Shown here piece by piece: positions 29,134 to 61,303 of a DNA stretch of 64,000 nucleotides (position 1 is its first letter; the number at the start of each line of letters is the position of its first letter). Below the pieces are notes generated by a model, which had not been told where the DNA came from, did no database searches, and worked only from the letters and a program-made list of their open reading frames with translations. The stretch lies in contig NC_018719.1 in the NCBI RefSeq assembly GCF_000303155.1, positions 1,550,001 through 1,614,000 on the forward strand, given 5' to 3'. The position numbers and the translations under genes were made by a program. This stretch comes from Candidatus Nitrososphaera gargensis Ga9.2. GTDB taxonomy: Archaea > Thermoproteota > Nitrososphaeria > Nitrososphaerales > Nitrososphaeraceae.

Positions 29134-29147
29134 TGCAATGCAGTGCA
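29134..29147. promoter_or_regulatory. TGCA element 1 (exact)
   Basis: TGCA-A-TGCA-G-TGCA. It lies 55 bp upstream of the epimerase pseudogene start (minus strand). Confidence 0.75.
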
Positions 29148-29364
29148 GACGTAATCGATAAAAGTAAGCATCTTGCTCTCGAGGTTAGAATCCCAGAAAC
29201 CCCACCAACGGCTTCGTGCTGAACGGAAGCCAATCCTGCCCTGAAGGAAACGAGGATTCTACATAACCCCAAGAAATATTGACATGTGTCAGGGCAGGAC
29301 ACATATCTTCTGAAAACATACAGCAGATAATCAGTACTTGCTATAATAATATGCTATGGTGTTT

Positions 29365-29378
29365 TGCAATGCAGTGCA
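29365..29378. promoter_or_regulatory. TGCA element 2 (exact)
   Basis: TGCA-A-TGCA-G-TGCA, 39 bp before the ATG at 29418. A TATA-like GTAAATATC begins 11 bp downstream. Confidence 0.85.
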
Positions 29379-29417
29379 AACCTACAAGGTAAATATCTGC
29401 CGCAAGAATGACAAAAC

Positions 29418-29633
29418 ATGATAAAACTCAATGGCGAAAACATAGCCGGAACTGCGTTTCTATTCTTTTCAGCCCTTCTTATGGCCGCGGGGCAGGTAAA
29501 TGCAGTATTTGGCAAGCTCTATCCGGCCTATTACATTCTTGTTGCGGCAGGAGTAGCACTTGTTTTCCTAGGCTACAGGACTGCCCGCAATGAAACAATG
29601 CCGCCAGCAAAAGAGCATTACAGGTTGTCATAA
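29418..29633 (+). CDS. Two-helix membrane protein of the TGCA regulon
   Basis: A 71-residue protein with two membrane helices (TAFLFFSALLMAAGQVNAVF and AYYILVAAGVALVFLGYRTA) and a short charged tail. It has its own exact TGCA element and TATA-like box, the best evidence that it is expressed. No family is recognised. Confidence 0.7.
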   Translation: MIKLNGENIAGTAFLFFSALLMAAGQVNAVFGKLYPAYYILVAAGVALVFLGYRTARNETMPPAKEHYRLS

Positions 29634-29645
29634 CTGGTTTTCAAA

Positions 29646-29927
29646 ATGTCTTGCCTTGGCATCTGCTTGAAATACAAGAACCGGCTTCCCGCAGCTGGCG
29701 TACGACGATATCAGGGGGAACGCAAGCGCTGCACAAACTGCGAGGTTTTCCTGCGCTGGAGTGGAGCAAGGTGTCCGTGCTGCAATACACTCCTTCGGAC
29801 CAGGCCCCGGAACAGGTGGGGAGATTATACCGCTAAAGCACAGAAAAAGCTCTTGAATTCTCCTAGAATGCCCGTAAGCAGAGAACTCAACAAATCTTAT
29901 GAAACAGATCTTGTGATCCGCGGGTAG
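29646..29927 (+). CDS. Zinc-ribbon microprotein (start uncertain)
   Basis: The central part, RKRCTNCEVFLRWSGARCPC followed by CNTLLRTRPRN, has a C-x2-C...C-P-C-C zinc-knuckle pattern of a kind I associate with small Nitrososphaeria proteins. The real start is unclear. The first roughly 25 residues are atypical, and a later non-ATG start or a frameshift is possible. The 3' end overlaps the convergent nitroreductase gene by 41 bp. It lies just after the membrane protein at 29418 and may share its TGCA-controlled transcript. Confidence 0.55.
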   Translation: MSCLGICLKYKNRLPAAGVRRYQGERKRCTNCEVFLRWSGARCPCCNTLLRTRPRNRWGDYTAKAQKKLLNSPRMPVSRELNKSYETDLVIRG

Positions 29928-30471: not shown

Positions 30472-30882
30472 TTACTTCTTTGTCAGGGCCAGTATTCCGC
30501 CTATGATGCCTAGTATCGGACCTATGAAAAAGCCACTCATGCCGACGAGTCCTACGATACCTGAGATCAGTATTGCTACACCCCATGCGCCTGAACTTTC
30601 AGGCCTCTTGTATATCGAATATCCGCCTAAAATAGAAACTGTTCCAGCGCCTACTGAAATTGCGGCCATTGTTCCAACAGCGGCCCACATAAATCCGCCT
30701 GACATCATCATGCCCCAGCCGCCGCTCATCATTCCTCCGCCGCCCCATCCCGGCATTCCTGCTTGGCTCCAGACTGCAAACATAGAGAGTCCCAGTGTTC
30801 CGCCGATGATCATTAGTGCCCCGCCTATTATGGACAGTATTGAGGACGGTCTCATGCTACTAGCTTTCGAAACACTTTCCAT
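30472..30882 (-). CDS. Glycine/methionine-rich four-helix membrane protein
   Basis: A 136-residue protein with four hydrophobic segments rich in glycine. They are separated by a Gly-Met-rich stretch (MPGWGGGGMMSGGWGMMMSG) at about residues 43-62. Methionine-rich loops can bind copper or silver, but none of this is proven. The start may be ATG 30882 or 30855 (MRPSS). It is divergent to the CBS gene at 30994 across a TGCA element. Confidence 0.7.
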   Translation of the reverse strand: MESVSKASSMRPSSILSIIGGALMIIGGTLGLSMFAVWSQAGMPGWGGGGMMSGGWGMMMSGGFMWAAVGTMAAISVGAGTVSILGGYSIYKRPESSGAWGVAILISGIVGLVGMSGFFIGPILGIIGGILALTKK

Positions 30883-30934: not shown

Positions 30935-30948
30935 TGCAGTGCAATTCA
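30935..30948. promoter_or_regulatory. TGCA element 3 (one unit degenerate)
   Basis: TGCA-G-TGCA-A-TTCA, between divergent genes: 45 bp from ATG 30994 (plus) and 52 bp from 30882 (minus). TGAATAAT 12 bp downstream is a possible TATA box. Confidence 0.7.
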
Positions 30949-30993: not shown

Positions 30994-31827
30994 ATGTACA
31001 TCGTGGGACTAGACGCAAAGGGAGCAATGTGGAAACCAGTAACGCTTGGACCGGACGAGACCGTTCTTGACGCAAGGGACATCCTTTTGAGATACGGCAT
31101 CAGCAGAGTCGTAATTGCAAAGAACCACAAGCCACTTGGCATAGTCACAGAAAAGGACATTGCACGGTTCCTGTACGAGCAGGTGCCGCCAAGGCAGCTT
31201 GATGAGATCAGGCTGGACGAGGTTATGAGCAGGAGTCTCGTGACAGTAGGTGAAGAGACGGACCTGAGAGCCTGTGCCAAGGTAATGCTGGCGAAGGGGG
31301 TCAGCTCGCTTGTAGTGGTAGACGGTAAGAAGAACCTGAAGGGCATATTCACCAAGACCGACCTTACAACCGCCTATGTGGAATATTATGCGATGGAGCA
31401 TAGGGTGCGGGAATTCATGACAAAAAAGGTCATAACGGTAGCGCCCGACGAGCCGGTGCATTCTGCAATCATGCTAATGATCGTCAACAAAATATCAAGA
31501 ATTGTGGTCACAAGGAACGGACGGCTTGTCGGCATGATAACGGGACGGGATTTGCTGCCGCTTGGAGCGATGGTAGAAAGGCGTCAACCCTGGAATGTAA
31601 AGAAATGGCAGCCGTTCATTCCTGCAGGGATAAAGGCGGCCATGCTGGTGTCAGATGTCATGACACCAAACCCTGTCACGACAACTGCGGATTCCGATCT
31701 GGCTGATGCAGGATACATCATGCTTAGGAACAGGATAAGCGGCCTGCCTGTTGTTGACTCAAAGCAAGCAGTGGCAGGAATAGTTACAAAAACCGATGTA
31801 GTCAAGGCATTAGCCTCACATGCTTGA
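30994..31827 (+). CDS. Protein with four CBS domains
   Basis: A 277-residue product from ATG 30994; a TTG at 30973 is the alternative, but the 45-bp spacing to the TGCA element favours 30994. Two CBS pairs are visible: LGPDETVLDARDILLRYGIS with IVTEKDIARFL, MSRSLVTVGEETDLRACAKV, ITVAPDEPVHSAIMLMIVNK, and VMTPNPVTTTADSDLADAGY with GIVTKTDVV. CBS pairs bind adenosine nucleotides and act as energy sensors. No catalytic domain is attached, so it probably regulates a partner. Confidence 0.9.
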   Translation: MYIVGLDAKGAMWKPVTLGPDETVLDARDILLRYGISRVVIAKNHKPLGIVTEKDIARFLYEQVPPRQLDEIRLDEVMSRSLVTVGEETDLRACAKVMLAKGVSSLVVVDGKKNLKGIFTKTDLTTAYVEYYAMEHRVREFMTKKVITVAPDEPVHSAIMLMIVNKISRIVVTRNGRLVGMITGRDLLPLGAMVERRQPWNVKKWQPFIPAGIKAAMLVSDVMTPNPVTTTADSDLADAGYIMLRNRISGLPVVDSKQAVAGIVTKTDVVKALASHA

Positions 31828-32885: not shown

Positions 32886-34037
32886 CTAATCCTTCCTGTA
32901 CGTGACTCCGCTCTCGCTGGTAGTTGTTGTCTCGTGCCTTCTGCCGTCTGCGATTGTAATTACGCCTCCCACGATCAAAGTCACGACTCCTGCCGCGGCC
33001 AGGCTTCCGCCCAGAATTAGCATGTCAAGTCCACCAGACATCATGTCGTCAAAATTAGGCTGGCCGTCCGCTGAAGCAAATGGCATGTACCCAAACGATC
33101 CGCTGACCATTGCGGTCTGTGTGCCGATGTTCGTAACAATGACAGTGTATGTTCCAGTCCCCTCAGGCTTGATGGTCGTAAAGAACGACTCGTCAAATTC
33201 GCCGTTGCTCACTGTTTCTCCGCTTGGGTCAGTTACTGTTTCCTTCAACCTGATGTCGCCTGAAGAATCCTGCCGCTCTACTCCGAGCGATAGCGAAAGC
33301 GGCCTGTCCAGAGCGTCGACCTTTATCTGCGCGTCTACCTACTGGCCCGGCTGTATCGATGTTGTTTGCACAATAGTGTTGTCTGCCAAAAACGAGCTGG
33401 CGAGTGAAGTCCTCCATACTGCTGTTATGGCTATTCCTGCCACTAGGAGCACTGTACCGGCAATAAGGATTGTGTGACCCCTCTGCATTTCACCGAATCG
33501 CCCCTTTGTATACCTCACATTTGCGGTATCGCCGGTCTCTTCCCTTGCTTTGATTACTATTGTATTTGCCGCTCTGCTAAGTAATCTCTGCCTCTTGTCA
33601 TTAGTGAATATCCAGCCCAGAAGTACATCTAATGGTAGAATGAATGCCTTGCCAAAACTCGATATGGCAATGCTCTTTGTGTCTGCCGGTTTCCCATCAA
33701 GGTTCGTTGTCTTGATATGCAGTAGCATTTTACCAATTGACTGACCATTGTACTTGGATTCCATGTATGTCCAATATCCAAAGAATACTAGGCTGTTGAT
33801 TGCAAAGCTGAATGGTCCGCCAATGTTGTTCCACCATTGGCCGTTTGATATCATGCTTGGATTCATAAATTCTGTGAGCCAGATTGGCATTGCCACTATC
33901 GCAAACAGTACTCCTAACGCAACATTGACTATGATGAAATCTACAAGCCATGCCCAGAACCTAGTGCTCCATCTCGCTAGTGTTAATTCTGTTCGCCTGT
34001 CTGAAGGCGAAGTTCCACGATCAAATTCCGAAGTCAT
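32886..34037 (-). pseudogene. RDD membrane protein joined in frame to an outer-domain protein, interrupted by TAG
   Basis: From ATG 34037 the first about 190 residues are an RDD-family membrane protein (RFWAWLVDFIIVNVALGVLF, then NGQSIGKMLLHIKTTNLDGK). The frame then runs into a second module with its own membrane helix (GHTILIAGTVLLVAGIAITA) and outer domain. A TAG at 33339-33341 interrupts it (TTSIQPGQ, stop, VDAQIKVDALDRPL), after which the frame stays open to 32886 and ends with another membrane helix (LAAAGVVTLIVGGVITIADG). The C-terminal module was probably once a separate gene starting at the MQRGHT methionine. A TGCA element lies 46 bp upstream of 34037. Confidence 0.75.
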
Positions 34038-34083: not shown

Positions 34084-34097
34084 TGCCGTGCAGTGCA
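34084..34097. promoter_or_regulatory. TGCA element 4 (one mismatch)
   Basis: TGCC-G-TGCA-G-TGCA, 46 bp upstream of the RDD gene (minus strand) and 89 bp from ATG 34187 (plus strand). Confidence 0.7.
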
Positions 34098-34186: not shown

Positions 34187-34795
34187 ATGAAAGCAGGTCC
34201 TACAAGAGGGGGCGAGTTTGGGATTGCCTCAAAGGGCAATACTTGGGCTAGGAGATTCATGGCTGCGGCAATCATACAGGGTGCAATTGTTGTTGGACTG
34301 ACCGTCTTTCTTGTCCTAGGACAGATATCAATCCTAAATCCAGAAGTTTCAAGAGTGATAGCATCCGGCGGTGCCGGGACTTGGTTTACATTTGGCTATT
34401 TGTCATACATACTTGTAGGAGTAATCGGAGTCGCTGTATCCTCGGCATTCTATCATTATCTGGCAGGCAACTTCAAGCGCAGTGCGAATGCACTAGCATG
34501 GGTTCACTTGATCCTAATGAATGTCGGAACCAGCGCGACTGCAGGCATGATGATGTATGCTGGCTATCAGGGAGGAGCTGCGATGTTGCCAACTGCTATA
34601 GGCGGAAGAGGTTTTGACGCACAGCAAGCGCACTCTATCATGGCACCATTTGTAGAGCCAATCGCAGGGTCTATCTTGGCAATTCTAGTTGGAGTTATCG
34701 CTGGTGGCGCAGGCTTTCTCATCGCATATAGGAGGGCACAGCGTTTCGCAGAAACTAGTCCAACTTCACGACGTGATGAGACGGAAGCTGCATAA
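34187..34795 (+). CDS. Four-helix membrane protein with conserved histidines (copy 1)
   Basis: A 202-residue protein with four membrane segments. It is strongly similar to the protein at 55148, sharing for example VFLVLGQIS and GGAGTWFTFGY. Histidines are conserved in both copies at FYHYL, W-x-HL and AH-x-I-x-AP, which could be metal or heme ligands as in cytochrome subunits; this is only a suggestion. The basic C-terminal tail is longer than in copy 2. The function is unknown. Confidence 0.75.
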   Translation: MKAGPTRGGEFGIASKGNTWARRFMAAAIIQGAIVVGLTVFLVLGQISILNPEVSRVIASGGAGTWFTFGYLSYILVGVIGVAVSSAFYHYLAGNFKRSANALAWVHLILMNVGTSATAGMMMYAGYQGGAAMLPTAIGGRGFDAQQAHSIMAPFVEPIAGSILAILVGVIAGGAGFLIAYRRAQRFAETSPTSRRDETEAA

Positions 34796-35704: not shown

Positions 35705-35893
35705 TCAAGATCCAAAATAAGCTGTTTTCCTCCTGCTCAAGTAGCCTACATATCTTTTGTAGATATTGTCGGGTATCGTTTTATAATAATACAGGAGAAA
35801 CAGGACAAAGAGGACAATTAGCGTATAGATGACAATAGATCCTGCTAGCAATTCCAAGTACCAAGTCAGTCCATCAGTTACGTCTGTTGCCAT
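35705..35893 (-). CDS. Single-helix membrane microprotein of the TGCA regulon
   Basis: A 62-residue protein with one membrane helix (AGSIVIYTLIVLFVLFLLYY) and a basic aromatic tail. It has an exact TGCA element 41 bp upstream. A 66-residue protein of similar plan is encoded at 54849. The function is unknown. Confidence 0.65.
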   Translation of the reverse strand: MATDVTDGLTWYLELLAGSIVIYTLIVLFVLFLLYYYKTIPDNIYKRYVGYLSRRKTAYFGS

Positions 35894-35934: not shown

Positions 35935-35948
35935 TGCATTGCAATGCA
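35935..35948. promoter_or_regulatory. TGCA element 5 (exact)
   Basis: TGCA-T-TGCA-A-TGCA, 41 bp from the start at 35893 (minus strand). Confidence 0.85.
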
Positions 35949-35991: not shown

Positions 35992-36441
35992 TTACCTGAC
36001 TACGAGCACAGAGCACTTGGCATGAGTTACAACTCCATTTGCAACGCTTCCAATCAGGAAGCGCTTTATGCCTGTTCTTCCATGCGTACCCATGACTATC
36101 AGGTCTACATTTTTGCTCTCGGCGTACTTGATGATGGAATCTGCGGCCGAAGCTATGTCAAGTATGGTCTCAGACGAAGCCTTGACTCCTTCCTTTGCAG
36201 CCAATTCACCTAGGTTCTTGTACCACATTTCTGAATGGCGCTTGGCTTCCTCTATGTACCGCACGATCACAAGCCCAGCGGCCTTGTATTCGACATATGG
36301 TGGGTTGACCACTGCATGCATGAAAATAATTTCAGCCTTGGCCATCTTGGCCAGCTTTATCGCATACTTGGCAGCCTGAAAAGAAGGGTCAGAGCCATCC
36401 AACGGCACAAGTATTCGCTTTGGCAGTATGGCGCTTGGCAT
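35992..36441 (-). CDS. Universal stress protein (UspA family)
   Basis: A 149-residue single-domain Usp. It has the N-terminal strand ILVPLDGSDPS and the nucleotide loop GTHGRTGIKRFLIGSVA (G-x2-G-x9-G-S/T pattern), so it is expected to bind ATP. It starts 3 bp after the stop of the four-CBS gene at 36445, so CBS and Usp are made from one transcript and may act together in energy sensing. Confidence 0.93.
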   Translation of the reverse strand: MPSAILPKRILVPLDGSDPSFQAAKYAIKLAKMAKAEIIFMHAVVNPPYVEYKAAGLVIVRYIEEAKRHSEMWYKNLGELAAKEGVKASSETILDIASAADSIIKYAESKNVDLIVMGTHGRTGIKRFLIGSVANGVVTHAKCSVLVVR

Positions 36442-36444: not shown

Positions 36445-37236
36445 CTATCTGCCCCTCTGAAATGCCTCTACCAAGTCTCTGGCGGTGACCATGGCCACGA
36501 TCTCATCACCCTTAGTCAGAGGAAGCCTCTTGATCTTGCGGGAAAACATTATCTTGGCTGCGTCCTTGGCACCGATTCCAAGCTTTGCAGTCACCACTGG
36601 ATACGTGCAGTAGGCACCCACTCTTTCTTCAATATCGATGCGCTGTCCCAGAACCCTGAGCAGATCTCTTTCAGTAAATATCGCGTATGGCGAGCCATTT
36701 GTAGTTACAACTACACTTCCGATTCCTTTCTTGAGCATCATTTTGGCTGCTGCAAGAATTGTGTTATCCGGCTTGATTGTAAAGATCCGGTTTGTCATCG
36801 CGCTTTCTATTGACGGGTTCCTGTCTGTCTGGAGGAACGCTCTGACAATGTCGGAAGCGGTTATTATGCCGACCAACTGGTCTGCCCCCGTCCGCCTTTC
36901 TTTCTCAAACACCAGAAGCCTTGCCTTTTTAGAGATCATGGTCTTTGCCGCCTCAAGTATGCTGGTCTCGCGATTTATCTTTGTGAACTTTTGAGTCAGG
37001 ACGTACCTGACTTGTTTGTTTGTCACTGTCTTGTTCAAAACAAGGTGCTGCAGTAACTCTCTTTCCGTTATGATGCCGTCTACTCTTTCGCCTTCAACTA
37101 CTACCAGGTTGCCTATGCCCTTCAGTATCATCACCTGCACGGCATCCACAAAGTTCGTGTTTGGCCGCACCGTTACTACTGGCGAGCTCATAAAGTCGCC
37201 GACCTTCAGTTGTCGTTCTTCAGCCTGCTGCTTCAT
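36445..37236 (-). CDS. Protein with four CBS domains, operon with UspA
   Basis: A 263-residue product from ATG 37236; an ATG at 37254 is possible, but 37236 gives the common 39-bp spacing to the TGCA element. Four CBS units are visible: MSSPVVTVRPNTNFVDAVQV with GIITERELL, TKINRETSILEAAKTMISKK, IFTIKPDNTILAAAKMMLKK, and YPVVTAKLGIGAKDAAKIMF with MVTARDLVEAF. The family binds AMP/ATP or related ligands. No other domain is present. Confidence 0.92.
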   Translation of the reverse strand: MKQQAEERQLKVGDFMSSPVVTVRPNTNFVDAVQVMILKGIGNLVVVEGERVDGIITERELLQHLVLNKTVTNKQVRYVLTQKFTKINRETSILEAAKTMISKKARLLVFEKERRTGADQLVGIITASDIVRAFLQTDRNPSIESAMTNRIFTIKPDNTILAAAKMMLKKGIGSVVVTTNGSPYAIFTERDLLRVLGQRIDIEERVGAYCTYPVVTAKLGIGAKDAAKIMFSRKIKRLPLTKGDEIVAMVTARDLVEAFQRGR

Positions 37237-37275: not shown

Positions 37276-37289
37276 TGCAGTGCAATGCA
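37276..37289. promoter_or_regulatory. TGCA element 6 (exact)
   Basis: TGCA-G-TGCA-A-TGCA, 39 bp from the preferred CBS start at 37236 (minus strand). Confidence 0.85.
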
Positions 37290-37297: not shown

Positions 37298-38359
37298 CTA
37301 TGGGACGATTACCGCCCTTCCTATGATCTGCCCCTGTCTTAGCTGGTCTATTGCTTGGTTGATCTCCTTCAATGAAAAGCTCTGGTAGGCATGCTTTATT
37401 TTGCGCTGGCTGGCTAGCTCTATCACTTCTTTCAGCTCGTTATAGTTTCCCCACAACGATGCGATCACTTGGTACTCGTTTACTATCGCTGGCAAGAGCG
37501 GGATTTTTATCTGGCTGCCAAACAGGCCTACTACCACCAGCGCACCGCCCTTTGCCAGCATCCTGACCGAATCGGCTATCGTATTCTCTGCACCAACGGT
37601 GTCAACTACCACATCGATCCCTCTGCCGTCTGTCAGCTCTAACACCTCATCACGTATGTTCCGTGTGGTTGCCGAGTTTACTGTGCGATCGGCACCAAAA
37701 TTCTCGGCAAGGCTGAGCTTTTTGTCTTTCCGGTCCACTGCAATGACAGTCGAGTGTGGCGCAAGGAGCCTGGCGTACTGGATGCCATACGCACCAAGGC
37801 CGCCCATTCCGACTATTGCGATGTTTGTCCCGGGACCAAGCATATGCGTCACCTTTTTGACTGCCCTGTACGGGGTGAGTCCTGCGTCTGTCAGCGGCGC
37901 AAGCTCTTCAGGAGTCAATCTGCCCTTTTTTGGAACCTTGACAAGGAACCTGTACGAAGGCACAAGTATGTATTCGGAGTATCCGCCATCGCGCTGCGAC
38001 AGGCCGGGCCACTGCGGAGCAACACAGAGCTGCTCGTCACCCCTTTTGCAGAACGTGCATATGCCGCAGCCCCATCCACCGAAAATTGCAACAAGCTCGC
38101 CCTTGCTGAACAGCCCTTCCGGCACCGTATTGCCAATCTCTTCGACCCAGCCGGCGTTTTCGTGACCGGGAATCTTGGGCAGCGCCAGCGGGATTGCATC
38201 TTTCCATTCTCCGTTTATCAGATGAAGGTCACTGTGGCAGAGGCCGGCTGCGCCTACCCTGACAAGGACAGCTTCGCCATGAACGTTGCTAGGCTTTGGA
38301 ACTCTTTCAACTACAAGTGGTCTTTGGTATTGGTGAATGCGCGCAGAGAGCATTTGCAT
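37298..38359 (-). CDS. Zinc-dependent alcohol dehydrogenase (MDR family)
   Basis: A 353-residue product from ATG 38359, which gives 40 bp to the TGCA element; an ATG at 38383 lies too close to it. The catalytic-zinc region is GLCHSDLH with GHENAGWVEEIG. The structural-zinc lobe is CGICTFCKRGDEQLC. The NAD(P)-binding motif is GMGGLGAYGIQYAR. It probably oxidises alcohols or reduces aldehydes with NAD(P); the substrate is unknown. It is expected to be stress-regulated by the upstream element. Confidence 0.93.
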   Translation of the reverse strand: MQMLSARIHQYQRPLVVERVPKPSNVHGEAVLVRVGAAGLCHSDLHLINGEWKDAIPLALPKIPGHENAGWVEEIGNTVPEGLFSKGELVAIFGGWGCGICTFCKRGDEQLCVAPQWPGLSQRDGGYSEYILVPSYRFLVKVPKKGRLTPEELAPLTDAGLTPYRAVKKVTHMLGPGTNIAIVGMGGLGAYGIQYARLLAPHSTVIAVDRKDKKLSLAENFGADRTVNSATTRNIRDEVLELTDGRGIDVVVDTVGAENTIADSVRMLAKGGALVVVGLFGSQIKIPLLPAIVNEYQVIASLWGNYNELKEVIELASQRKIKHAYQSFSLKEINQAIDQLRQGQIIGRAVIVP

Positions 38360-38399: not shown

Positions 38400-38418
38400 T
38401 GCACTGGCGTGCATTGCA
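38400..38418. promoter_or_regulatory. TGCA element 7 (extended, degenerate)
   Basis: TGCA-C-TGGC-G-TGCA-T-TGCA, four units with one degenerate. It is 40 bp upstream of the ADH start at 38359. Confidence 0.65.
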
Positions 38419-38429: not shown

Positions 38430-39251
38430 TTATGATTTTGATTTTCTGAGACCTTTCATCACAACATCCCAAGGGGTTACAATCGAGCCATTATCTAGTA
38501 GCAGGCAAGGGGCGTTGAGATCGAGCAAGAGTTCAGCCGCCAAACCTGCGGGCGTATCTCGATTAACAGATTTAGCTGCAGCCAGATCAAGGATGTTGAC
38601 TTGAGTCTCGAAAAGCCCGTCCAAGCCTCGCGACAAGACAGTCTCTCTGCCCCCATAGCTCAGGAGATATTCGAGCATCTTGCGATCATTTAGGACTCCT
38701 GTATTGGAGTTATTGTCTTTAACGATCAAGTTTCGAATTCCTTGCTCTAACATTATTTCTAAAGCGTCTCCTATACTTGTGTTACTCTTTACTGCGACTA
38801 ATGGGGATGACAATCGATCGATTGGTGTATCTAGCTTTGAAGCCATTGCGACTCTTAATACATCACGTATAGACAGAGAAGTAACAACACTTTGCTTGAC
38901 TGTTATGGGTACAAATGCAAATCCGGTCTTGCTAAAAATATCTAGCGCGACACTTAGAGGGTAGTCGACCTGCACCGCGTGTTCAAATCGGCTCATCACC
39001 ATCGATGCTGTTCCCTGCAGCCAACCCTTTGGGTGGTACAAGATGTGTTCGATGATGTGCCTGCCCCCTATTGCTCCTACAACCTTGTGGTTATCAAGAA
39101 CCACTACTCCATCAACATAGATCTGGGGACCTATAGCCAAGAATGTGGCAACTTGCAGTAGCGGATCTGACGGGCTGGCTGAGAGAAGTGGCCGTTTGAA
39201 GATGTGAGGAACTATGTCAAATATCGGCCGCTCTGTTTCTGCAAGCTGCAT
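38430..39251 (-). CDS. CBS-domain protein, divergent
   Basis: A 273-residue protein with about four weak CBS-like units, for example YVDGVVVLDNHKVVGAIGGR, LDIFSKTGFAFVPITVKQSV, and VAVKSNTSIGDALEIMLEQG with IRNLIVKDNN. The end (CLLLDNGSIVTPWDVVMKGL) is a typical last CBS strand-helix. It begins 12 bp after the small HTH gene at 39264, so the two probably form an operon under TGCA element 8. Confidence 0.85.
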   Translation of the reverse strand: MQLAETERPIFDIVPHIFKRPLLSASPSDPLLQVATFLAIGPQIYVDGVVVLDNHKVVGAIGGRHIIEHILYHPKGWLQGTASMVMSRFEHAVQVDYPLSVALDIFSKTGFAFVPITVKQSVVTSLSIRDVLRVAMASKLDTPIDRLSSPLVAVKSNTSIGDALEIMLEQGIRNLIVKDNNSNTGVLNDRKMLEYLLSYGGRETVLSRGLDGLFETQVNILDLAAAKSVNRDTPAGLAAELLLDLNAPCLLLDNGSIVTPWDVVMKGLRKSKS

Positions 39252-39263
39252 ATCAGTTCCCTC

Positions 39264-39434
39264 CTAATCAGAAGCTGCATAGCCTAGCAGCTTGAGGAGC
39301 TTTTTCACTGTCATCTGATCCATTCTCAACTGATCAGAGATATCCTTTATTGAAATCCCAGCTTCATACATTCTTGACAGCCGCTTCAGTAGCGCTGCGT
39401 CAATATTTGTTGCGTTTCCTATCACGATTACCAC
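39264..39434 (-). CDS. Small helix-turn-helix protein in operon with CBS gene
   Basis: About 56 residues from GTG 39434. The upstream ATG at 39482 lies inside the TGCA element and is unlikely to be used. The HTH is LKRLSRMYEAGISIKDISDQ then LRMDQMTVKKLLKLLGY, a compact helix-turn-helix of the kind used for DNA binding. Because it has its own TGCA element and precedes a CBS gene, it is one candidate for a regulator acting on the island. Direct evidence is lacking. Confidence 0.7.
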   Translation of the reverse strand: MVIVIGNATNIDAALLKRLSRMYEAGISIKDISDQLRMDQMTVKKLLKLLGYAASD

Positions 39435-39477: not shown

Positions 39478-39491
39478 TGCATTGCAGTGCA
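39478..39491. promoter_or_regulatory. TGCA element 8 (exact)
   Basis: TGCA-T-TGCA-G-TGCA, 43 bp from the GTG at 39434 (minus strand). Confidence 0.85.
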
Positions 39492-39558: not shown

Positions 39559-39966
39559 ATGTCTCCGTCATCTGGCATTTCGTCAGAACAAATAGCCAGC
39601 ATCGACATTTCGCCATTTTGGAAGAAAAACGAGCCTCTATTGAGAGAATTAGAAAGGTCAGAAATGCCTTCAAAGTCAAGGTTAATCTATAAAGAAATAG
39701 CCAGCAATACAGACAGTAACAATAATCACATACTAACAAACTACGACCTTGTTAACATCTATGACAACCGAAAGCACTTTTTTGGGATAGTCGCGGAGCT
39801 GTCTCCAGATCGTTCCTCGGTAATAAGAGAGGAAATTGTTGCAGGCAACGGATTGTCTAATGCTAAAAAGACTATGGTAGATGGCAGCAGGATAAGCAAC
39901 AAAGCACATATAGATTGGCTAAAGACTATGAGCCAAAATGATGTCTGCCGACTGTTCCGCACCTAG
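39559..39966 (+). CDS. 135-residue protein of unknown function
   Basis: A hydrophilic protein starting at ATG 39559 without membrane segments. The middle (HILTNYDLVNIYDNRKHFFG) and end (KAHIDWLKTMSQNDVCRLFR) look like folded alpha/beta sequence. I do not recognise a family. It has no TGCA element directly upstream; the nearest, at 39478, faces the other strand but is 67 bp from this start. Confidence 0.55.
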   Translation: MSPSSGISSEQIASIDISPFWKKNEPLLRELERSEMPSKSRLIYKEIASNTDSNNNHILTNYDLVNIYDNRKHFFGIVAELSPDRSSVIREEIVAGNGLSNAKKTMVDGSRISNKAHIDWLKTMSQNDVCRLFRT

Positions 39967-50398: not shown

Positions 50399-50854
50399 TT
50401 ATCTGATAATCATGACAGGACAGCTGGCCGTTTCTGATACCCTTCTCGCTATGCTACCCAAGGTGATCATTTTTGTCGCCTTCAACTGCCTGCTGCCGAT
50501 AATTATCATTTCTGCTTTTTCAGCATTTGCTATCGATACAATTTCTTCAGCAGGCGACCCTACACCAAGTAGGAATCTGGCGCTCACTCCGCCTTCTCTT
50601 GCTTTTTGAATCCTGTCCTTCAGCATGATCTCTGCCCCTGTCTTTAGGATTCTGATAAGTTGCGTCTTGGCATTTTCAAGTGTAGTCTTTTCGCTTATCA
50701 GACCAAGGGTTGCGCTTGGAGGGACGAACCTGCTGTCAACGATGTGCACAATTATTATCTCAGACTTTAAGACCCTCGCGAATTCTATTGCCTTGTCAAG
50801 AGCTCTATCTGACATTTCGGTTCCGTCATGCGGCACCAGTATTGGTTTTGCCAT
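50399..50854 (-). CDS. Universal stress protein (UspA family), non-canonical loop
   Basis: A 151-residue product from ATG 50854 (MAKPILVPHDGTEMSDRALD). The nucleotide loop reads IIGSRQLKATKMITLGSIAR. The second glycine of G-x2-G is replaced by leucine or glutamine, so ATP binding may be lost. An upstream ATG at 50908 lies in the TGCA element and is unlikely. It is divergent from a zinc protein gene. Confidence 0.9.
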   Translation of the reverse strand: MAKPILVPHDGTEMSDRALDKAIEFARVLKSEIIIVHIVDSRFVPPSATLGLISEKTTLENAKTQLIRILKTGAEIMLKDRIQKAREGGVSARFLLGVGSPAEEIVSIANAEKAEMIIIGSRQLKATKMITLGSIARRVSETASCPVMIIR

Positions 50855-50898: not shown

Positions 50899-50912
50899 TG
50901 CATTGCACTGCA
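50899..50912. promoter_or_regulatory. TGCA element 16 (exact, divergent)
   Basis: TGCA-T-TGCA-C-TGCA, 44 bp from ATG 50854 (minus strand) and 38 bp from ATG 50951 (plus strand). TTAATTAT 10 bp downstream is TATA-like. Confidence 0.92.
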
Positions 50913-50950: not shown

Positions 50951-51262
50951 ATGGTACGTGCGAAGAAAAGCTATCAAAGAAGCTCAGATTCGCCGGAAAA
51001 CCTTGTCTCTCCCTACGAAGATATTAGCACAAGACAGTTTCACATAACCGGGGAGACATTCCCTACTCTTGCTCTTGGCATATGTGACAATTGCCACTGG
51101 TGCTATTCATGCATAAATGCAAGAGGTGTTATCAAAGTATGCCCGGTGTGTGGAGAAGAAGTATCGCAGATTCCAATGGATATTGATGAAATTTGTTTGA
51201 TAGAAGAAGACGAGAAGCGCGGCATTACGTTGAATTTTGACCGCAGGCTTCCTCTGCGGTGA
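50951..51262 (+). CDS. Small zinc-binding protein
   Basis: A 103-residue product from ATG 50951; an ATG at 50945 adds two residues. The centre is LGICDNCHWCYSCINARGVI followed by KVCPVCGEE, with six cysteines suggesting one or two zinc sites. The C-terminus is acidic and then basic (LIEEDEKRGITLNFDRR). The function is unknown. Confidence 0.75.
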   Translation: MVRAKKSYQRSSDSPENLVSPYEDISTRQFHITGETFPTLALGICDNCHWCYSCINARGVIKVCPVCGEEVSQIPMDIDEICLIEEDEKRGITLNFDRRLPLR

Positions 51263-51793: not shown

Positions 51794-51807
51794 TGCAATG
51801 CACTGCA
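51794..51807. promoter_or_regulatory. TGCA element 17 (exact, divergent)
   Basis: TGCA-A-TGCA-C-TGCA, 42 bp from ATG 51850 (plus strand) and 60 bp from GTG 51733 (minus strand). Confidence 0.88.
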
Positions 51808-51849: not shown

Positions 51850-53178
51850 ATGAAAGATAATTTTGAAAAGAAACGAGCAGGCGCTTTTGTTTTGTGGGGC
51901 ATACTAGTTGCTTCCGCGGTAACAGGGGCATTGCTTTCGGTTTCCAATATGAATTTCGGCGACAAAGTAGGTGCGTCAGCAGCTGCAAGCCCTGTACACA
52001 GAGAATACACGCTGGTGGCAGAAGATGCAGAATTAGAAATAGCTCCGGGAGAAGTAGTAAAGCCATGGACGTTCAACGGCACTATGCCGGGCCCCACGCT
52101 ACGGTTTACTGAAGGCGACAATGTTACAATCCACTTCATCAACAAGACGCCGCTGATTCACACGGTGCATTTTCACGGAAATCATGACGAAAAAAACGAT
52201 GGAGTACTTCCACAGATAATACCCGCCGAGAACTATACATACAATTTCATTGCCGATCCGGCTGGGGCATTTATGTATCACTGTCATGCGTATCCAACCT
52301 CGCTTCACATACGGATGGGAATGTACGGCTCGATTATCGTAGACCCGAAGGATTCCGAGGTTTTGAAGCCTGCAAAAGAGTTTGCGCTGGTATTGAGCGA
52401 GTTTGATCCTGATAATCAGGACAACTTTGTCGCAAAATACTATCCCGTAAATGGCTACATTGACCAGTATATGGGAGAAAACGCATTGAAAATAAAGCAG
52501 AACGAGCTTGTAAGACTCTATGTCATCAATATCGGCACGACAATACCATATTCATTCCATCTTCACAGCACAGTGTTCAAGGTTTACGCATCTGGATTGC
52601 CGTCAAATGATCCGATAGATGCCCAGACTATCGAGATTGGTCCGGGAAATGCTGCGATCGTAGAAGCTGTCTGGAAGTCGCCGGGGACATACATGTTCCA
52701 TAGCCACGGCTTTTTGGAAGAGCGCGGCAACATGGGTGCGGTGCGTGTGTTGTCAGACGGCTCTGGTGAGCAGTTGTCAGAAAGCGTATCAATGATCGAT
52801 TGGCAATATGAATTGCAGAAAGAACTTCAAAAACCGACAGTAATTGATTACGACAACTTGTCAGGCTCTGCATCCGCACAGTCGCACAGTAGTTCGGCTC
52901 ATGGTGGGACGACAGTAAAGATCGTTAAAGGGGCATGGGATAAGAACCAAAGAGACTACTATGAGCCGGCAGAGATAACGGTTGAGGAAGGAGCTGTAAT
53001 AAACTGGATAAATGAAGATGGCGTCGTACATACTGTGACTAGCAAGCAGCAAGGTCTTTTCGACTCTTCCATAATCGCTGCGGGTCAAGAATGGCAATAC
53101 CAATTCGCTGAAGAGGGCGAGTACGACTACTATTGCATAGTGCATCCGTGGATGGAAGGGATAGTGCACGTAGAATAA
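51850..53178 (+). CDS. nirK: NirK-like multicopper oxidase with extra cupredoxin domain
   Basis: A 442-residue protein with an N-terminal membrane anchor or signal (GAFVLWGILVASAVTGALLS). Domain 1 has HTVHFHGNHD and YHCHAYPTSLHIRMGM: the C145-H153-M156/158 set with H104 fits a type 1 copper site, and H109/H144 fit type 2 ligands. Domain 2 has FHLHS and FHSHGFLEERGNMG, without a cysteine. This is the copper nitrite reductase layout. A C-terminal plastocyanin-like domain (VVHTVTSKQ ... YYCIVHPWMEG) adds another type 1 site. In ammonia oxidisers such proteins are linked to nitrite/NO metabolism. Laccase-type activity is an alternative. Confidence 0.85.
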   Translation: MKDNFEKKRAGAFVLWGILVASAVTGALLSVSNMNFGDKVGASAAASPVHREYTLVAEDAELEIAPGEVVKPWTFNGTMPGPTLRFTEGDNVTIHFINKTPLIHTVHFHGNHDEKNDGVLPQIIPAENYTYNFIADPAGAFMYHCHAYPTSLHIRMGMYGSIIVDPKDSEVLKPAKEFALVLSEFDPDNQDNFVAKYYPVNGYIDQYMGENALKIKQNELVRLYVINIGTTIPYSFHLHSTVFKVYASGLPSNDPIDAQTIEIGPGNAAIVEAVWKSPGTYMFHSHGFLEERGNMGAVRVLSDGSGEQLSESVSMIDWQYELQKELQKPTVIDYDNLSGSASAQSHSSSAHGGTTVKIVKGAWDKNQRDYYEPAEITVEEGAVINWINEDGVVHTVTSKQQGLFDSSIIAAGQEWQYQFAEEGEYDYYCIVHPWMEGIVHVE

Positions 53179-53261: not shown

Positions 53262-53275
53262 TGCATTGCACTGCA
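53262..53275. promoter_or_regulatory. TGCA element 18 (exact)
   Basis: TGCA-T-TGCA-C-TGCA, 39 bp from the Hsp20 ATG at 53315. An AT-rich stretch (TTTTCAAATAGAAATAAA) lies in between. Confidence 0.92.
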
Positions 53276-53314: not shown

Positions 53315-53797
53315 ATGACAAAATCAGGTAAGATTGCCAAAAGAGAGGATAAGCAACTAGGATACCTAGACGACATTTTTGAGAATTTTAGAAGGGAAGT
53401 TGAGAGCGCCTTGAAACCATGGCATGCCGGGTTCAGGTTTCCATCGCTGTTCGATGGAGAAACCAGAGTGCCACTATGCGACATGGCAGACAGAGGAGAC
53501 AGATACGAGCTGCAGGTAGAGGTGCCTGGAATCGAGAAGGACAAGGTAAACGTCAAGGCCACGGGCAACTCTGTAGAGATATCAGCAGAGCAATCAGAAA
53601 AGACGGAGGAAAAGAGAAAAGATTACGTATACAGCGAAAGGTCCCACAGATCCTTCTACCGCAAGATACCTGTGCCAGAAGAAATAGTGCCTTCAAAGAT
53701 CGACGCCAAGATGAACAACGGCATACTCGTTGTCAAGCTTCCAAAGAAGAATCCTACCAAATCCAAAGAAGAGGCAACAAAGGTCGAGGTAAAGTAA
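53315..53797 (+). CDS. hsp20: Hsp20/alpha-crystallin small heat shock protein
   Basis: A 160-residue protein with a central alpha-crystallin domain: DRGDRYELQVEVPGIEKDKV, SVEISAEQSEKTEEKRKDYV, SHRSFYRKIPVPEEIVPSKI and the conserved end AKMNNGILVVKLPKK. It forms oligomers and holds unfolding proteins. The next gene's ATG follows its stop codon directly. Its exact TGCA element ties a classical stress gene to the regulon. Confidence 0.95.
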   Translation: MTKSGKIAKREDKQLGYLDDIFENFRREVESALKPWHAGFRFPSLFDGETRVPLCDMADRGDRYELQVEVPGIEKDKVNVKATGNSVEISAEQSEKTEEKRKDYVYSERSHRSFYRKIPVPEEIVPSKIDAKMNNGILVVKLPKKNPTKSKEEATKVEVK

Positions 53798-55147: not shown

Positions 55148-55705
55148 ATGAATAGATCAGGGTTAAACTACCAATCCAAAGGCACTTGGACCAAGAGGTT
55201 CATGGCGGCGGCAGTTGTGCAGGGCGCTGTTGTTGCAGGACTAACTGTATTTCTAGTGCTTGGTCAAATATCTTTCATAAAGCCTGAAGTATCAAGGGTC
55301 ATGGCGGCAGGCGGCGCAGGGACATGGTTTACTTTTGGCTACATGATGTATATCATCGTCGGGGTGATGGGAGTGGCAGTTTCTGCACTTTTCTACCATT
55401 ACCTTGAAAACGTGCTTGGAAGGCGCATTCGCAGAAGCGCCAAGGCACTTGCTTGGACCCATCTTGTGTTGATGAATGTCGGGACAGCCGCAGCAATGGG
55501 ATTGCTCATGTATGCAGGATATCTTGGTGGATCCTCGATGTTGCCCGAGAATGTAGGAGGGCAGGGCTTTAACGCAGGACAAGCGCATGAAATACTAGCG
55601 CCTTTCGTAGAGCCAATATCGGTAGCAATATTGGTGATCGTCGCCAGTGTCGTGGCAGGTGGAACAGGCTTCCTTATGACCTATAGATATTCAAATACAT
55701 CGTAG
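55148..55705 (+). CDS. Four-helix membrane protein with conserved histidines (copy 2)
   Basis: A 185-residue product from ATG 55148, aligned to the start of the paralogue at 34187 (MNRSGLNYQSKGTWTKRFMA). Upstream in-frame ATGs at 55085 and 55127 are alternatives. All four helices and the histidines at FYHYL, W-x-HL and AH-x-I-x-AP match copy 1. Both copies sit in the stress island, but only copy 1 has a nearby TGCA element. The function is unknown. Confidence 0.75.
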   Translation: MNRSGLNYQSKGTWTKRFMAAAVVQGAVVAGLTVFLVLGQISFIKPEVSRVMAAGGAGTWFTFGYMMYIIVGVMGVAVSALFYHYLENVLGRRIRRSAKALAWTHLVLMNVGTAAAMGLLMYAGYLGGSSMLPENVGGQGFNAGQAHEILAPFVEPISVAILVIVASVVAGGTGFLMTYRYSNTS

Positions 55706-57220: not shown

Positions 57221-57691
57221 TCATCTTGCCACAAGAACAGGGCAGGGTGCATGGTTCGACACTCCACTGGCAACGCTGCCTAGGAGCAGCCGCTTGAAAC
57301 TTGACAGCCCTCTAGTTCCTACAACTATGAGATCAACAGCATTTTTCTCTGCATACTCTACTATCATTCCAGTCACTGACTTGCCGGTGTCGTACAAGAT
57401 CTCTCTCCTTGCCTCAAGATTCGCCTTACTTGCTTGTTCCTCATAACGCTTCATCCACTGCAGAGCCGATTCTTTCCTTGCCCTGTTGTACCCTTCCACC
57501 AACTTGACATCACCGTACCTTGCTCGCGCTCCTATTACGCCACCCATCTTTATGTCCTCTATTACGTGCACAAACACCAGCTCTGCGCTTGTCATCTTGG
57601 CTAAATTGATAGCATCTTCAACCGCCTTATCGGATGACGGCGATCCATCTACCCCTACCAATATTTTTTGTATGGATGATTCTCTGACCAT
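57221..57691 (-). CDS. Universal stress protein (UspA family)
   Basis: A 156-residue Usp: IQKILVGVDGSPSSDKAVED at the start and VVGTRGLSSFKRLLLGSVAS at the nucleotide loop (G-x2-G-x9-G-S). ATP binding is expected. It is divergent from a membrane protein gene with one exact TGCA element 39 bp from this start. Confidence 0.93.
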   Translation of the reverse strand: MVRESSIQKILVGVDGSPSSDKAVEDAINLAKMTSAELVFVHVIEDIKMGGVIGARARYGDVKLVEGYNRARKESALQWMKRYEEQASKANLEARREILYDTGKSVTGMIVEYAEKNAVDLIVVGTRGLSSFKRLLLGSVASGVSNHAPCPVLVAR

Positions 57692-57730: not shown

Positions 57731-57744
57731 TGCAGTGCATTGCA
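57731..57744. promoter_or_regulatory. TGCA element 19 (exact, divergent)
   Basis: TGCA-G-TGCA-T-TGCA, 39 bp from ATG 57691 (minus strand) and 47 bp from ATG 57792 (plus strand). CAAAATATAAC about 12 bp downstream is TATA-like. Confidence 0.92.
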
Positions 57745-57791: not shown

Positions 57792-58232
57792 ATGCCAATA
57801 GAATGGGATGTCTTGGTTACAGAAATGGCAATGCTTGGCACAATAATCTACAGTGCAATATTTGTGGAAAACTGGATTGCAAAGAGAAAAATGCATCTGA
57901 AAGAAAAGGAAGATGGCAGACGGACTATTGAGTTTGTTGCCAACGACCTCAAGAAAAAAATCCGGTTCATAGATGACTCGGTGCAGTACAAGGATTTCAA
58001 GCCATTCTTCACGGACATGTGGGATGCCATCATCTTGGGCGGCAAGCAAACAGTTCTCCCCTTTGAGCTATTTGAAAACCTCCAGCATACATACTCTTGG
58101 ATGAAATATTATAACAACGAGCTTGAACAAAGGGAGAAAGGCGACGGCGAAGCGGTTGTAATGGAGATTCTGGGCGAGGTGAAAGGATCCATCGGTCAGT
58201 CTCTGAAACTATTGAAAGAAGCCAAATTGTAA
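57792..58232 (+). CDS. Membrane-anchored helical protein
   Basis: A 146-residue product from ATG 57792; an ATG at 57735 lies inside the element. One N-terminal membrane helix (EMAMLGTIIYSAIFVENWIA) is followed by a charged helical domain with conserved-looking aromatic residues (KPFFTDMWDAIILGGKQTVL). It shares its element with the Usp gene. I do not recognise the family. Confidence 0.7.
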   Translation: MPIEWDVLVTEMAMLGTIIYSAIFVENWIAKRKMHLKEKEDGRRTIEFVANDLKKKIRFIDDSVQYKDFKPFFTDMWDAIILGGKQTVLPFELFENLQHTYSWMKYYNNELEQREKGDGEAVVMEILGEVKGSIGQSLKLLKEAKL

Positions 58233-58236: not shown

Positions 58237-58250
58237 GTGCAGTGCAGTAC
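58237..58250. promoter_or_regulatory. TGCA element 20 (one mismatch)
   Basis: TGCA-G-TGCA-G-TACA, 46 bp from ATG 58297. Confidence 0.7.
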
Positions 58251-58296
58251 ACAACAATCCTATTACTTATTACACTAGGACGGTTTGAACTGTCGG

Positions 58297-58641
58297 ATGA
58301 AGAAACTCGATATCATAATTCCGCACGAGAACCTGGTGGATGTCAATAGGATACTACACAAGCACGGGGTAGGCGGCATGTCATTTTACGACATCAAAGG
58401 TAGAGGGAGAGCAAAGCAAGAGCCAGTTTCGGTCGGCAGAGGAGTTATGACGTATGTGCCAGAGTTTGGCTACCGTACAAAAATAGAGGTGGTGGTCTCT
58501 GATGCTTTGGCAAAGTCCATCATTGCCGATGTGCTAAAGTTACTTGGTACTGGCTCGTCTGCTATCGGCAAGATTTTTGTCTATGACGTAAAAGAAGCGT
58601 ATGACCTAGGAACAAAGGAAGAAGGGGATTCGGCGCTCTAA
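58297..58641 (+). CDS. glnB: PII signal transduction protein
   Basis: A 114-residue PII-family protein from ATG 58297 (MKKLDIIIPHENLVDVNRIL). The T-loop region is RGRAKQEPVSVGRGVMTYVP, and the end IGKIFVYDVKEAYDLGTKEE is the conserved PII C-terminal part. It binds ATP/ADP and 2-oxoglutarate and controls nitrogen or carbon targets. No amt ammonium transporter gene adjoins it, so the target is not evident. A TGCA element upstream places it in the stress regulon. Confidence 0.9.
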   Translation: MKKLDIIIPHENLVDVNRILHKHGVGGMSFYDIKGRGRAKQEPVSVGRGVMTYVPEFGYRTKIEVVVSDALAKSIIADVLKLLGTGSSAIGKIFVYDVKEAYDLGTKEEGDSAL

Positions 58642-58649: not shown

Positions 58650-59486
58650 TTATTTGTATATTCTTTCAGCCTCGCGGCTTGCCGAGCGCTCATAGTCCTG
58701 CAGTTGTTGTCGGTGCATTTTCAGAAATTCTTCCAAATGTTTCTTTATCATTTCCACTTTTTGCCTCAGCGAAGAAGTATCGACCTTCAAGCCGGGTAGA
58801 ATCTTGGGCAACGCTTCTAGCACGATGGCGGCTCCTTCAGGATCAGGCGATTCTACCATTGTTGGGATCATCAAGGCGGTGCAGCCGAGACCGCGTGCGG
58901 CGCATACGGATAAGAGCGAGCCGGAAAGACCAACAATAATCGCATCATCCGGAACTGCCATTCCAAGACTATCGGCCGGATTGGGGCTTTGGGCAGATGG
59001 CTTTTCTGCAAGTTCATTTCGCAATAGCATCGCCTTTCTTTCAAGCAGGTACGGGGGGCTGAAATTGGCTGGCAGTATGCCGCCAAGCACTACTATTTCA
59101 CTGACCTTTGCGTTCATGCACCAGTCAACGATTGTGTTAATTATGGAATAGGTCCCCCTTGCAGTCACCGGTACTTCACAAATCAGTGCGCATACCGTCC
59201 CTGAATCATTGGCGTAAATCCTGAACGCATGCCTGAACCTCTTTCCTATGAAAATTGCAGCCGGCATTACATGTTGGGATTCTATGTATCCAATCTGATG
59301 CATCTTTAGCTGTTCTATGATGTGGTTAATTGTAACTGACCCTATCATTCCACTGTCGGGAAAGCCTGCTATCAGCACAGGTCTTTCAAGCACGATTTTT
59401 TGGTTTGTAACGGGCAAGACCTTTGTGTATCCATCTGAGACGACAGGCAGATTGTTGCTATTCTTCCTATTCGGTCTAGGGTTCAT
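58650..59486 (-). CDS. PAC2-family protein (proteasome assembly chaperone-like)
   Basis: A 278-residue protein of the archaeal PAC2 family: PVLIAGFPDSGMIGSVTINH near residue 32, FRIYANDSGTVCALICEVPV and SEIVVLGGILPANFS. PAC2 proteins are related to proteasome assembly chaperones; archaeal members are mostly uncharacterised. The C-terminal 40 residues form a coiled helix (LEEFLKMHRQQLQDYERSAS). It converges with PII and is divergent from the thermosome gene. Confidence 0.88.
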   Translation of the reverse strand: MNPRPNRKNSNNLPVVSDGYTKVLPVTNQKIVLERPVLIAGFPDSGMIGSVTINHIIEQLKMHQIGYIESQHVMPAAIFIGKRFRHAFRIYANDSGTVCALICEVPVTARGTYSIINTIVDWCMNAKVSEIVVLGGILPANFSPPYLLERKAMLLRNELAEKPSAQSPNPADSLGMAVPDDAIIVGLSGSLLSVCAARGLGCTALMIPTMVESPDPEGAAIVLEALPKILPGLKVDTSSLRQKVEMIKKHLEEFLKMHRQQLQDYERSASREAERIYK

Positions 59487-59526
59487 CTATCGCTACTAGA
59501 GCAGCAGGATAAATATCAATATTGTT

Positions 59527-59540
59527 TGCAGTGCATGGCA
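59527..59540. promoter_or_regulatory. TGCA element 21 (one unit degenerate)
   Basis: TGCA-G-TGCA-T-GGCA, 45 bp from the thermosome ATG at 59586 and 40 bp from the PAC2 gene start (59486). Confidence 0.75.
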
Positions 59541-59585
59541 GAGTATCCTCCCAACAGAAATAGTGGTTACAAGATAATTGCTCTG

Positions 59586-61235
59586 ATGTCAACACTATCG
59601 GTTGCAGGAACCACTAAAGAAGGTATTCCAATACTGCTATTGAAAGAGGGGACATCCCAGACAAAGGGAAGGGATGCAATAAGAAATAATGTCGAGGCCG
59701 CAAAGCTCGTTGCCGCTATCCTAAAGCCTGTCCTTGGCCCGCGTGGCATGGACAAGATGCTTGTAGACTCCCTCGGAGATGTTACAATAACAAACGATGG
59801 CGCTACGATTTTGAAGGAAATGGATGTGCAACATCCTGCAGCCAAGATCATGGTCGAGATAGCAAAAACTGTGGATGAAGAGGTCGGCGACGGGACCACT
59901 TCCTCTGTGATAATTGCCGGGGCAATGCTGGAAAAAGCTGAGGAGCTGCTGATCAAAAAGGGGATACACCCTACAATTATTGTTGATGGCTACCGCAAGG
60001 CGATGAGAATGTCGATAGAGATTCTGAACAAGATAGCCGAGGATGTGAACATTAACGATCATGCTGTCCTGAAGGATATAGCAAAGACAAGCATGGAGTC
60101 AAAAATTGTCTCTGTTGACAGTGATGTCTTGGCAGACCTTGCTGTCAAAGCTATTTTGACAGTGGCCGAAAAGGCAGATGGTGCTAACGGAGATAATTAC
60201 ATGGTGGCAGATCTGGATAATGTGAAAGTCCAGAAAAAGGCGGGAGAATCGATGGGTGAATCCAGCTTGATTGAAGGCATAATTGTGGACAAGGAAATCA
60301 CCCATTCGGAAATGCCAAAAAGGATCGAAAATGCACGGATCCTGCTTCTGAATTCTGGTCTGGAGATTGAAAAAACAGAGTTTGACGCAAAGATAAGCAT
60401 CGACAGGCCCGAGCAGATGAAAATGTTTCTAGAGGAAGAGACTAGGATGATAAAGGCAATGGTGGATAAGATTGCTGCAGTAAAAGCAAATGTAGTGTTC
60501 TGCCAGAAAGGAATAGACGACATTGGCCTACACTATCTTACAAAGGCAAACATTTCCGCTGTAAGAAGAGTAAAAGAATCTGACCTTGATGCATTGGCAA
60601 AAGCCACGGGCGCAAGGGTAGTCACGAACATTGACGATCTCTCGCCAGACGATCTTGGGTACGCGCAGCTTGTTGAGGAAAAGAAGGTCGAGCTGGACAA
60701 ATGGGTCTTTGTAGAGAAATGCAGGAATCCCAAGGCAGTGTCAGTACTGATACGTGGCGGCTCGCAAAGGATTGTTGATGAAGCTGAGCGGTCAATCCAT
60801 GATGCATTAATGGTGGTAAAAGATGTTGTCCAAAAACCAGCAATAGTGGTTGGAGGAGGCTCGCCTGAAGCTTATGTGGCTCAAAGATTAAGGGAATGGG
60901 CTCCGTCAGTCTCCGGCAGAGAACATTTTGCCATTCTTGCATTTGCAGATGCCATCGAGTCAATACCCGTTACGCTAATTGAAAATGCAGGAATGGATAC
61001 AATCGATACGATTACCCAGATACGTTCGAAACAATCAGCAACGAGCCTCTGGATGGGCGTTGACGTAAAAGAAATGAAAGTCACGGACATGCGTAAGAAG
61101 AACGTGATAGAACCTCTTGCCGTCAAGGAGCAGGTACTAAAATCGGCTACAGAAGCAGCTGCAATGCTGCTGAGGATAGATGACATTCTTGCAGCGTCGC
61201 CTACGCCTGCAGCCGGTCAGTCGTCGACGAAGTAA
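59586..61235 (+). CDS. thsA: Thermosome subunit (group II chaperonin)
   Basis: A 549-residue product from ATG 59586, the standard length; an ATG at 59526 overlaps the element and is rejected. It carries [30 protein letters not shown] and [16 protein letters not shown] near the N-terminus and [19 protein letters not shown] in the C-terminal equatorial domain. It folds proteins using ATP in a double ring. Its TGCA element links it to hsp20 and the Usp genes. The A/B subunit type is not assigned with confidence. Confidence 0.95.
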
Positions 61236-61284
61236 AACGCCGTCTATTTTAGCTAAGCACCCAATAAGCTCCAAAAGACTAGAT

Positions 61285-61303
61285 CGCAGTGCGGTGCACC
61301 GCA
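61285..61303. promoter_or_regulatory. TGCA element 22 (four units, perfect outer palindrome)
   Basis: CGCA-G-TGCG-G-TGCA-C-CGCA. GTGCGGTG/CACCGCAC at 61289-61304 is a perfect 16-bp palindrome. The end of the element is 41 bp from ATG 61345. Confidence 0.7.

Follow-up and report, generated by a model that had tools for sequence, protein, structure and literature searches.

The window analyzed here, a 64-kb stretch of DNA, comprises positions 1550001-1614000 of a 2.83-Mb genome (2,833,868 bp) held in a single contig. Between window positions 29134 and 61303 it contains an island of genes, whose products were identified by Pfam and NCBIfam scans, and among these genes a short element, TGCANTGCANTGCA, recurs; its core consists of TGCA units at 5-bp spacing, three to four units in a copy. 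A total of 21 distinct sites were found once overlapping registers had been merged, 19 of them with at most one mismatch and two, at 38405 and 61290, with two mismatches. In the following account the gap is the distance in nucleotides between the element and the start codon.

Usp proteins are encoded directly behind three of the elements, each of which is exact and lies between a divergent pair: the element at 45278-45291 separates a Usp gene (44750-45232, minus strand, gap 45) from a membrane protein gene (45338-45751, plus strand, gap 46); that at 50899-50912 separates a Usp gene (50399-50854, minus, gap 44) from a gene for a Cys-rich protein (50951-51262, plus, gap 38); and that at 57731-57744 separates a Usp gene (57221-57691, minus, gap 39) from a reading frame at 57792-58232 (plus, gap 47). 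One more Usp gene (35992-36441) follows a CBS gene (36445-37236) in a minus-strand operon that begins 39 nt from the exact element at 37276-37289. Five CBS proteins are encoded directly behind elements, and a sixth is reached via an HTH operon. In addition to the CBS gene just mentioned, these are a four-CBS protein (30994-31827, plus, gap 45), whose one-mismatch element at 30935-30948 also faces a DUF6114-like gene (30472-30882, minus); a CBS protein at 41931-42380 (minus), 47 nt from the exact element at 42428-42441; and a divergent pair around the exact element at 48489-48502, made up of a CBS gene (47929-48444, minus, gap 44) and a CBS-zinc finger gene (48542-49099, plus, gap 39). The sixth (38430-39251) lies behind an ORF for a 56-amino-acid HTH protein (39262-39434), both on the minus strand, with an exact element at 39478-39491, 43 nt from the HTH ORF.

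Further targets include Hsp20 (53315-53797, plus), 39 nt from the exact element at 53262-53275, and a thermosome gene (59586-61235, plus, gap 45), which shares the divergent one-mismatch element at 59527-59540 with a PAC2 gene (58650-59486, minus, gap 40). A zinc alcohol dehydrogenase (37298-38359, minus) is preceded at 45 nt by the four-unit, two-mismatch element at 38405-38418, a PII-like protein (58297-58641, plus) at 45 nt by the one-mismatch element at 58238-58251, and an RDD membrane protein (33339-34037, minus) at 46 nt by that at 34084-34097, also with one mismatch. The one-mismatch element at 47826-47839 lies about 40 nt before an amino-acid permease (46441-47784) followed by VIT1 (45761-46444, both minus), and the exact element at 51794-51807 lies 42 nt before a NirK-like multicopper oxidase fused to plastocyanin (51850-53178, plus). 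Several small ORFs complete the set: a small membrane ORF at 29418-29633 (plus), 39 nt from the exact element at 29365-29378; an ORF at 35707-35893 (minus), 41 nt from the exact element at 35935-35948; an 82-amino-acid ORF at 40116-40364 (minus), 40 nt from the one-mismatch element at 40405-40418; and a 71-amino-acid ORF at 61345-61560 (plus), 41 nt from the two-mismatch element at 61290-61303. The gene list given in a preliminary description of this DNA was thus essentially right. The nitroreductase and the ferredoxin of the island have no element directly upstream.

Two sites are spaced differently. At the exact element 29134-29147, the nearest start is a TTG at 55 nt (ORF 28803-29078, minus). 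The exact element at 49791-49804 follows directly on the stop codon of a gene for a 201-amino-acid protein (49182-49787, plus), described below as a candidate ribbon-helix-helix (RHH) regulator, and precedes a SnoaL-like gene (49889-50251, plus) with 60 nt to a TTG at 49865 and 84 nt to the ATG; gaps of about 58 to 61 precede this gene in several relatives too.

Exact copies of TGCANTGCANTGCA number 13 in the window, where shuffled sequences give an expectation of 0.02, and the same 13, all inside a 28.6-kb part of the island, are the only ones in the genome; the reversed pattern, used as a control, has no copy in the whole genome. Allowing up to one mismatch raises the genome-wide number of places to 31, of which 22 fall inside the island. 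At least six of the nine outside it are located within long open frames and are apparently chance matches, while the one at 39595, 43 nt before a 71-amino-acid ORF outside the island, may be a genuine element. The first 29 kb of the window holds no element even with up to two mismatches. These counts rule out both chance and a genome-wide repeat. The preliminary description had reported 22 copies, 13 of them exact, and none in the first 29 kb; its exact count and the empty 29 kb stand, the total becomes 21 on merging of registers, and the complete-genome scan that it had proposed confines the exact copies to the island.

Placement relative to genes is equally distinctive. All 21 sites are wholly intergenic in a region that is 85% coding (p about 5e-19), and for 19 of the 21 an accepted start codon lies 38 to 47 nt away, compared with 8.7% of random intergenic positions; some starts were picked among in-frame alternatives partly by their gap, which makes the gap p-value optimistic. 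Orthologues in relatives show the same gaps as the island genes, and often, as in the pairs above, the element has start codons at 38 to 47 nt on both sides. The gaps form a double mode, at 38 to 40 and at 43 to 47, and the difference equals one 5-bp TGCAN unit. In several relatives a four-unit element (19 bp) stands 38 to 39 nt from both genes of a divergent pair, and with one outer unit degenerate, the apparent gap on that side becomes 43 to 45. By this geometry the center of the four-unit form is about 48.5 bp from the start codon. Relative to the same codon, an A+T-rich, TATA-like hexamer is found mostly at -28 to -33, a position that fits leaderless transcription. The element is therefore found just upstream of BRE/TATA and outside the core promoter, where an archaeal upstream activator element is located. 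Promoter location, a 38- to 47-bp gap for most genes, and a position just upstream of BRE/TATA had all been claimed from the first inspection, and each was borne out: the promoter bias is strong and the offset from start codons fixed.

A short repeated sequence clustered in one region might also be a repeat, a terminator, or an RNA signal rather than the site of a regulator. Against this stand the constant position of the element before a TATA-like box, since an element so placed is not transcribed from these promoters; the spacing kept at orthologous genes in divergent genomes; and the flanks outside the TGCA core, which carry little information and are hardly conserved between copies. This reading is largely refuted, and we regard it as extremely improbable. 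We conclude that the element is genuine and almost certainly serves as a conserved site for a transcription factor.

The exact element was found in 101 of 400 genomes of the class, and the reversed control in only a handful; the genome-wide promoter statistics come from pattern searches. Exact copies number up to 22 in the same genus and up to 14 in a second genus of this family; many Nitrosopumilaceae have between one and five, and a Nitrosocosmicus-like genus has close to none (0 or 1). Other Nitrososphaera genomes keep the same spacing and the same targets (Hsp20, Usp, CBS, alcohol dehydrogenase, PII, and thermosome), so that the enrichment upstream of stress orthologues anticipated in the preliminary description is found in related Nitrososphaeria. 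In Nitrosopumilaceae a gene for a winged-HTH (wHTH) protein of 109 to 116 amino acids has the element upstream, frequently in four-unit form. The element is thus conserved in marine ammonia-oxidizing archaea (AOA) as well as in Nitrososphaera, and recurs among soil and marine relatives alike.

Several DNA-binding proteins were considered as readers of the element. The TFB-linked factor mentioned in the preliminary description is without support, as no TFB gene is present among the island ORFs scanned. The small HTH ORF at 39262-39434 has its own element and appears to be element controlled in four other Nitrososphaera genomes too, but it was not found in G120, G137, G143, and G259, each with 7 to 22 exact elements, and the other genera of the family that were searched likewise gave no match. 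This distribution led us to reject it as the regulator; the reading is largely refuted, and very little likelihood attaches to it. An ArsR/TrmB-like wHTH protein would bind the element in a second reading, with autoregulation in Nitrosopumilaceae, another wHTH protein acting in Nitrososphaera, and the RHH protein as a passenger or partner. Indeed, 58 of 64 distinct wHTH promoters have the element at a fixed gap (up to two mismatches; commonest gap, 43 or 38), and wHTH and RHH genes are frequently adjacent. However, the Pfam scan of the island found no wHTH ORF of the marine type; the best matches in this genome (E values of 1e-13 to 1e-14) lie about 1 Mb from the island and are not close counterparts. 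The RHH protein, by contrast, is present in the element-rich Nitrososphaera islands examined. The wHTH protein was rejected as common regulator for want of a close counterpart in Nitrososphaera, and we consider the reading as a whole improbable.

The remaining candidate is the 201-amino-acid RHH protein (49182-49787), with a predicted RHH domain at about residues 17 to 57 and a C-terminal domain at about 71 to 199. Its N-terminal Pfam matches (CopG_antitoxin, HicB, and RHH_1) are weak and under the curated cutoffs; under a permissive threshold, 37 of 38 homologues match CopG_antitoxin, and a PHROG Arc-like repressor family matches the protein itself with an E value of 1.7e-5. In the structure model, helices span residues 26 to 38 and 43 to 55, the strand being unassigned in the monomer. 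The strand residues S19 and T21 (94%) and R23 (100%) are almost invariant across 52 homologues; they alternate and would face DNA in the RHH fold. The N terminus thus has the strand-helix-helix order with alternating DNA-facing strand residues that marks the MetJ/Arc/CopG group.

The C-terminal domain was modeled with a mean pLDDT of 84, and a Foldseek search matched H-NOX, TRAPP, and de novo proteins equally well but weakly (TM about 0.5 to 0.6; E values of 5e-4 to 1e-2); a PDB sequence search with this domain gave no meaningful match. Identity as an H-NOX heme protein was rejected, since the YxSxR heme motif is absent from the sequence; moreover, the conserved histidines (145, 153, and 159) lie, as read by eye, in or beside a beta hairpin, whereas the proximal histidine of H-NOX is in a helix. 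The residues D144, H145, E148, H153, and H159 are almost invariant, a pattern that suggests a ligand or metal site.

Co-localization links this protein to the element. In those Nitrososphaera genomes examined that are rich in elements, the main island has an RHH gene among or next to its elements; of 23 Nitrosopumilaceae genomes, 8 have the gene no more than 3 kb from an exact element (expected, 0.25). Around 80 RHH loci, taken from a separate, named genome collection, 1.05 Mb of sequence contains 36 exact elements, versus none in one shuffle. No other DNA-binding protein of the island was found to be linked with the element in both lineages. Other observations fit less simply: several Nitrosopumilaceae have the RHH gene tens of kilobases from the element, a few genomes (e.g., G118 and G146) have one or two elements and no detected RHH gene, and the RHH gene of this genome has no element upstream of itself. 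The main objection comes from Nitrosocosmicus-like genomes, whose RHH orthologue has the same DNA-facing strand residues but no element within about 8 kb; a degenerate element around it was looked for and not found. We judge the RHH protein to be the best-supported candidate binder and think that it probably reads the element.

On this basis, a lineage-wide regulator of transcription in AOA would bind to the element, whose center lies about 48.5 bp before the start codons of genes that are probably leaderless. Dimers of the RHH protein may insert a two-stranded ribbon into the major groove at palindromic TGCA cores, turning S19, T21, and R23 toward the DNA, and dimers on neighboring units may bind cooperatively. 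Because the element sits directly upstream of BRE/TATA, a single bound complex could act on both promoters of a divergent pair. The C-terminal H-NOX/TRAPP/V4R-like domain might respond to a signal of stress, redox state, or metabolism, and the bound complex would activate a stress and dormancy-type set (Hsp20, thermosome, Usp, CBS, alcohol dehydrogenase, PII, and the cupredoxin oxidase).

The direction of control could instead be the opposite, with the same binder: as a repressor operator, the element would block TBP/TFB in unstressed cells and be released by stress. It abuts the BRE region, and most RHH proteins, CopG and Arc among them, act as repressors. Against this, the near end of the element is at -38 or beyond, on the upstream side of TATA and clear of it, and one fixed center usable by two divergent promoters is the usual arrangement of an activator. 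A repressor operator is, in our estimate, unlikely but deserving of attention. Activation is what we infer from position, and the words "controls" and "activator" in the preliminary description, whose interpretation is supported, are to be read in the same way. Taken as a whole, an activating element bound by the RHH protein is the best explanation and the one that we favor.

A wider proposal, plausible if short of probable, is that these sites define an undescribed, lineage-wide stress regulon of AOA, in which an RHH activator with an H-NOX/TRAPP/V4R-fold sensor reads tandem TGCA palindromes with a 5-bp period; marine AOA would have a self-controlled wHTH-RHH module with few targets, and Nitrososphaera an island of some 25 promoters. 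AOA, which drive nitrification, rank among the most abundant archaea, and no AOA stress regulator with a binding site turned up in the literature searched. The literature on the element, CopG operators, and AOA regulons, searched in its open-access part and hence weak evidence of novelty, has no description of the element, in agreement with the earlier remark that no archaeal element of this form was known. What is gained is a defined cis element, targets in many genomes, and a single testable candidate protein. If correct, the proposal would add a new transcription factor architecture, RHH plus an H-NOX/TRAPP-like domain, and would show one site driving divergent leaderless archaeal promoters.

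The mycobacterial dormancy regulon of DosR comprises Hsp20, Usp proteins, CBS proteins, a nitroreductase, and a ferredoxin. The island resembles it in kind, but the analogy is one of gene content only, as DosR, a response regulator, recognizes an unrelated site. In AOA, the copper-limitation promoter motifs of Nitrososphaera viennensis, TTCSGSMTTTGWACYANT and RATTTAAABATAGATTTAAATAATAAS, are located at -35 to -70, and their sequences are unrelated to TGCA repeats (PMC7785015). For the C-terminal domain, the predicted fold weakly resembles that of H-NOX, V4R, and TRAPP (Bet3) proteins (4u9b, TM 0.60; 2bjn, TM 0.59), at a sequence identity of about 8 to 14% and without the heme motif. NikR-type regulators share with the candidate an N-terminal RHH domain and a C-terminal ligand-binding domain; in NikR this is a nickel-binding, ACT-like domain, whereas the candidate model resembles the H-NOX/TRAPP/V4R fold. 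The nearest solved RHH protein by sequence is CopG, the repressor of plasmid pMV158/pLS1 (PDB 1b01, 1ea4, and 2cpg), which aligns with the RHH domain over residues 8 to 45 of the profile at an E value of 0.21, the best obtained and not significant. The CopG operator carries TGCA cores; the literature searched cites a 13-bp symmetric element. CopG is a plasmid copy number repressor of 45 amino acids, a single domain with no sensor, and the candidate is not a CopG repressor proper; it has 201 amino acids with an extra domain, S/T/R as its strand residues, and a putative site of three to four units at 5-bp spacing.

The gene for the ribbon-helix-helix (RHH) protein, the candidate binder of the TGCA element, is retained in Nitrosocosmicus-like genomes with identical DNA-facing residues (loci L163-L168, L173, L175, and L176); neither the island nor elements were found in its surroundings at these loci. 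RHH proteins of the type found in ammonia-oxidizing archaea are also encoded on contigs of bacterial MAGs assigned to Chitinophagaceae (L230) and Phycisphaerae (L244), which are probably archaeal contigs that were misbinned. In Nitrosopumilaceae, RHH and winged-HTH genes form a pair, frequently side by side, that is present in several paralogous copies (L093, L094, L096, L098, and L177-L182); most copies are preceded by a degenerate element, the position of which is unchanged between them.

Beyond the island, the N. gargensis genome carries an element with one mismatch (genome positions 39595-39608), 43 nt upstream of a 71-aa membrane ORF, which is possibly a genuine distant target.

Within the window, a 56-aa HTH ORF (39262-39434), predicted to be element controlled, matched the CRISPR repeat-binding protein Cbp1 weakly (E value of 2e-4), far below the cut-off. 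The window also encodes a two-domain, NirK-like multicopper oxidase with a fused plastocyanin domain (51850-53178) and two membrane proteins that resemble each other (34187-34795 and 55148-55705), the second of which showed weak similarity to subunit I of cytochrome oxidase (E value of 9e-4).
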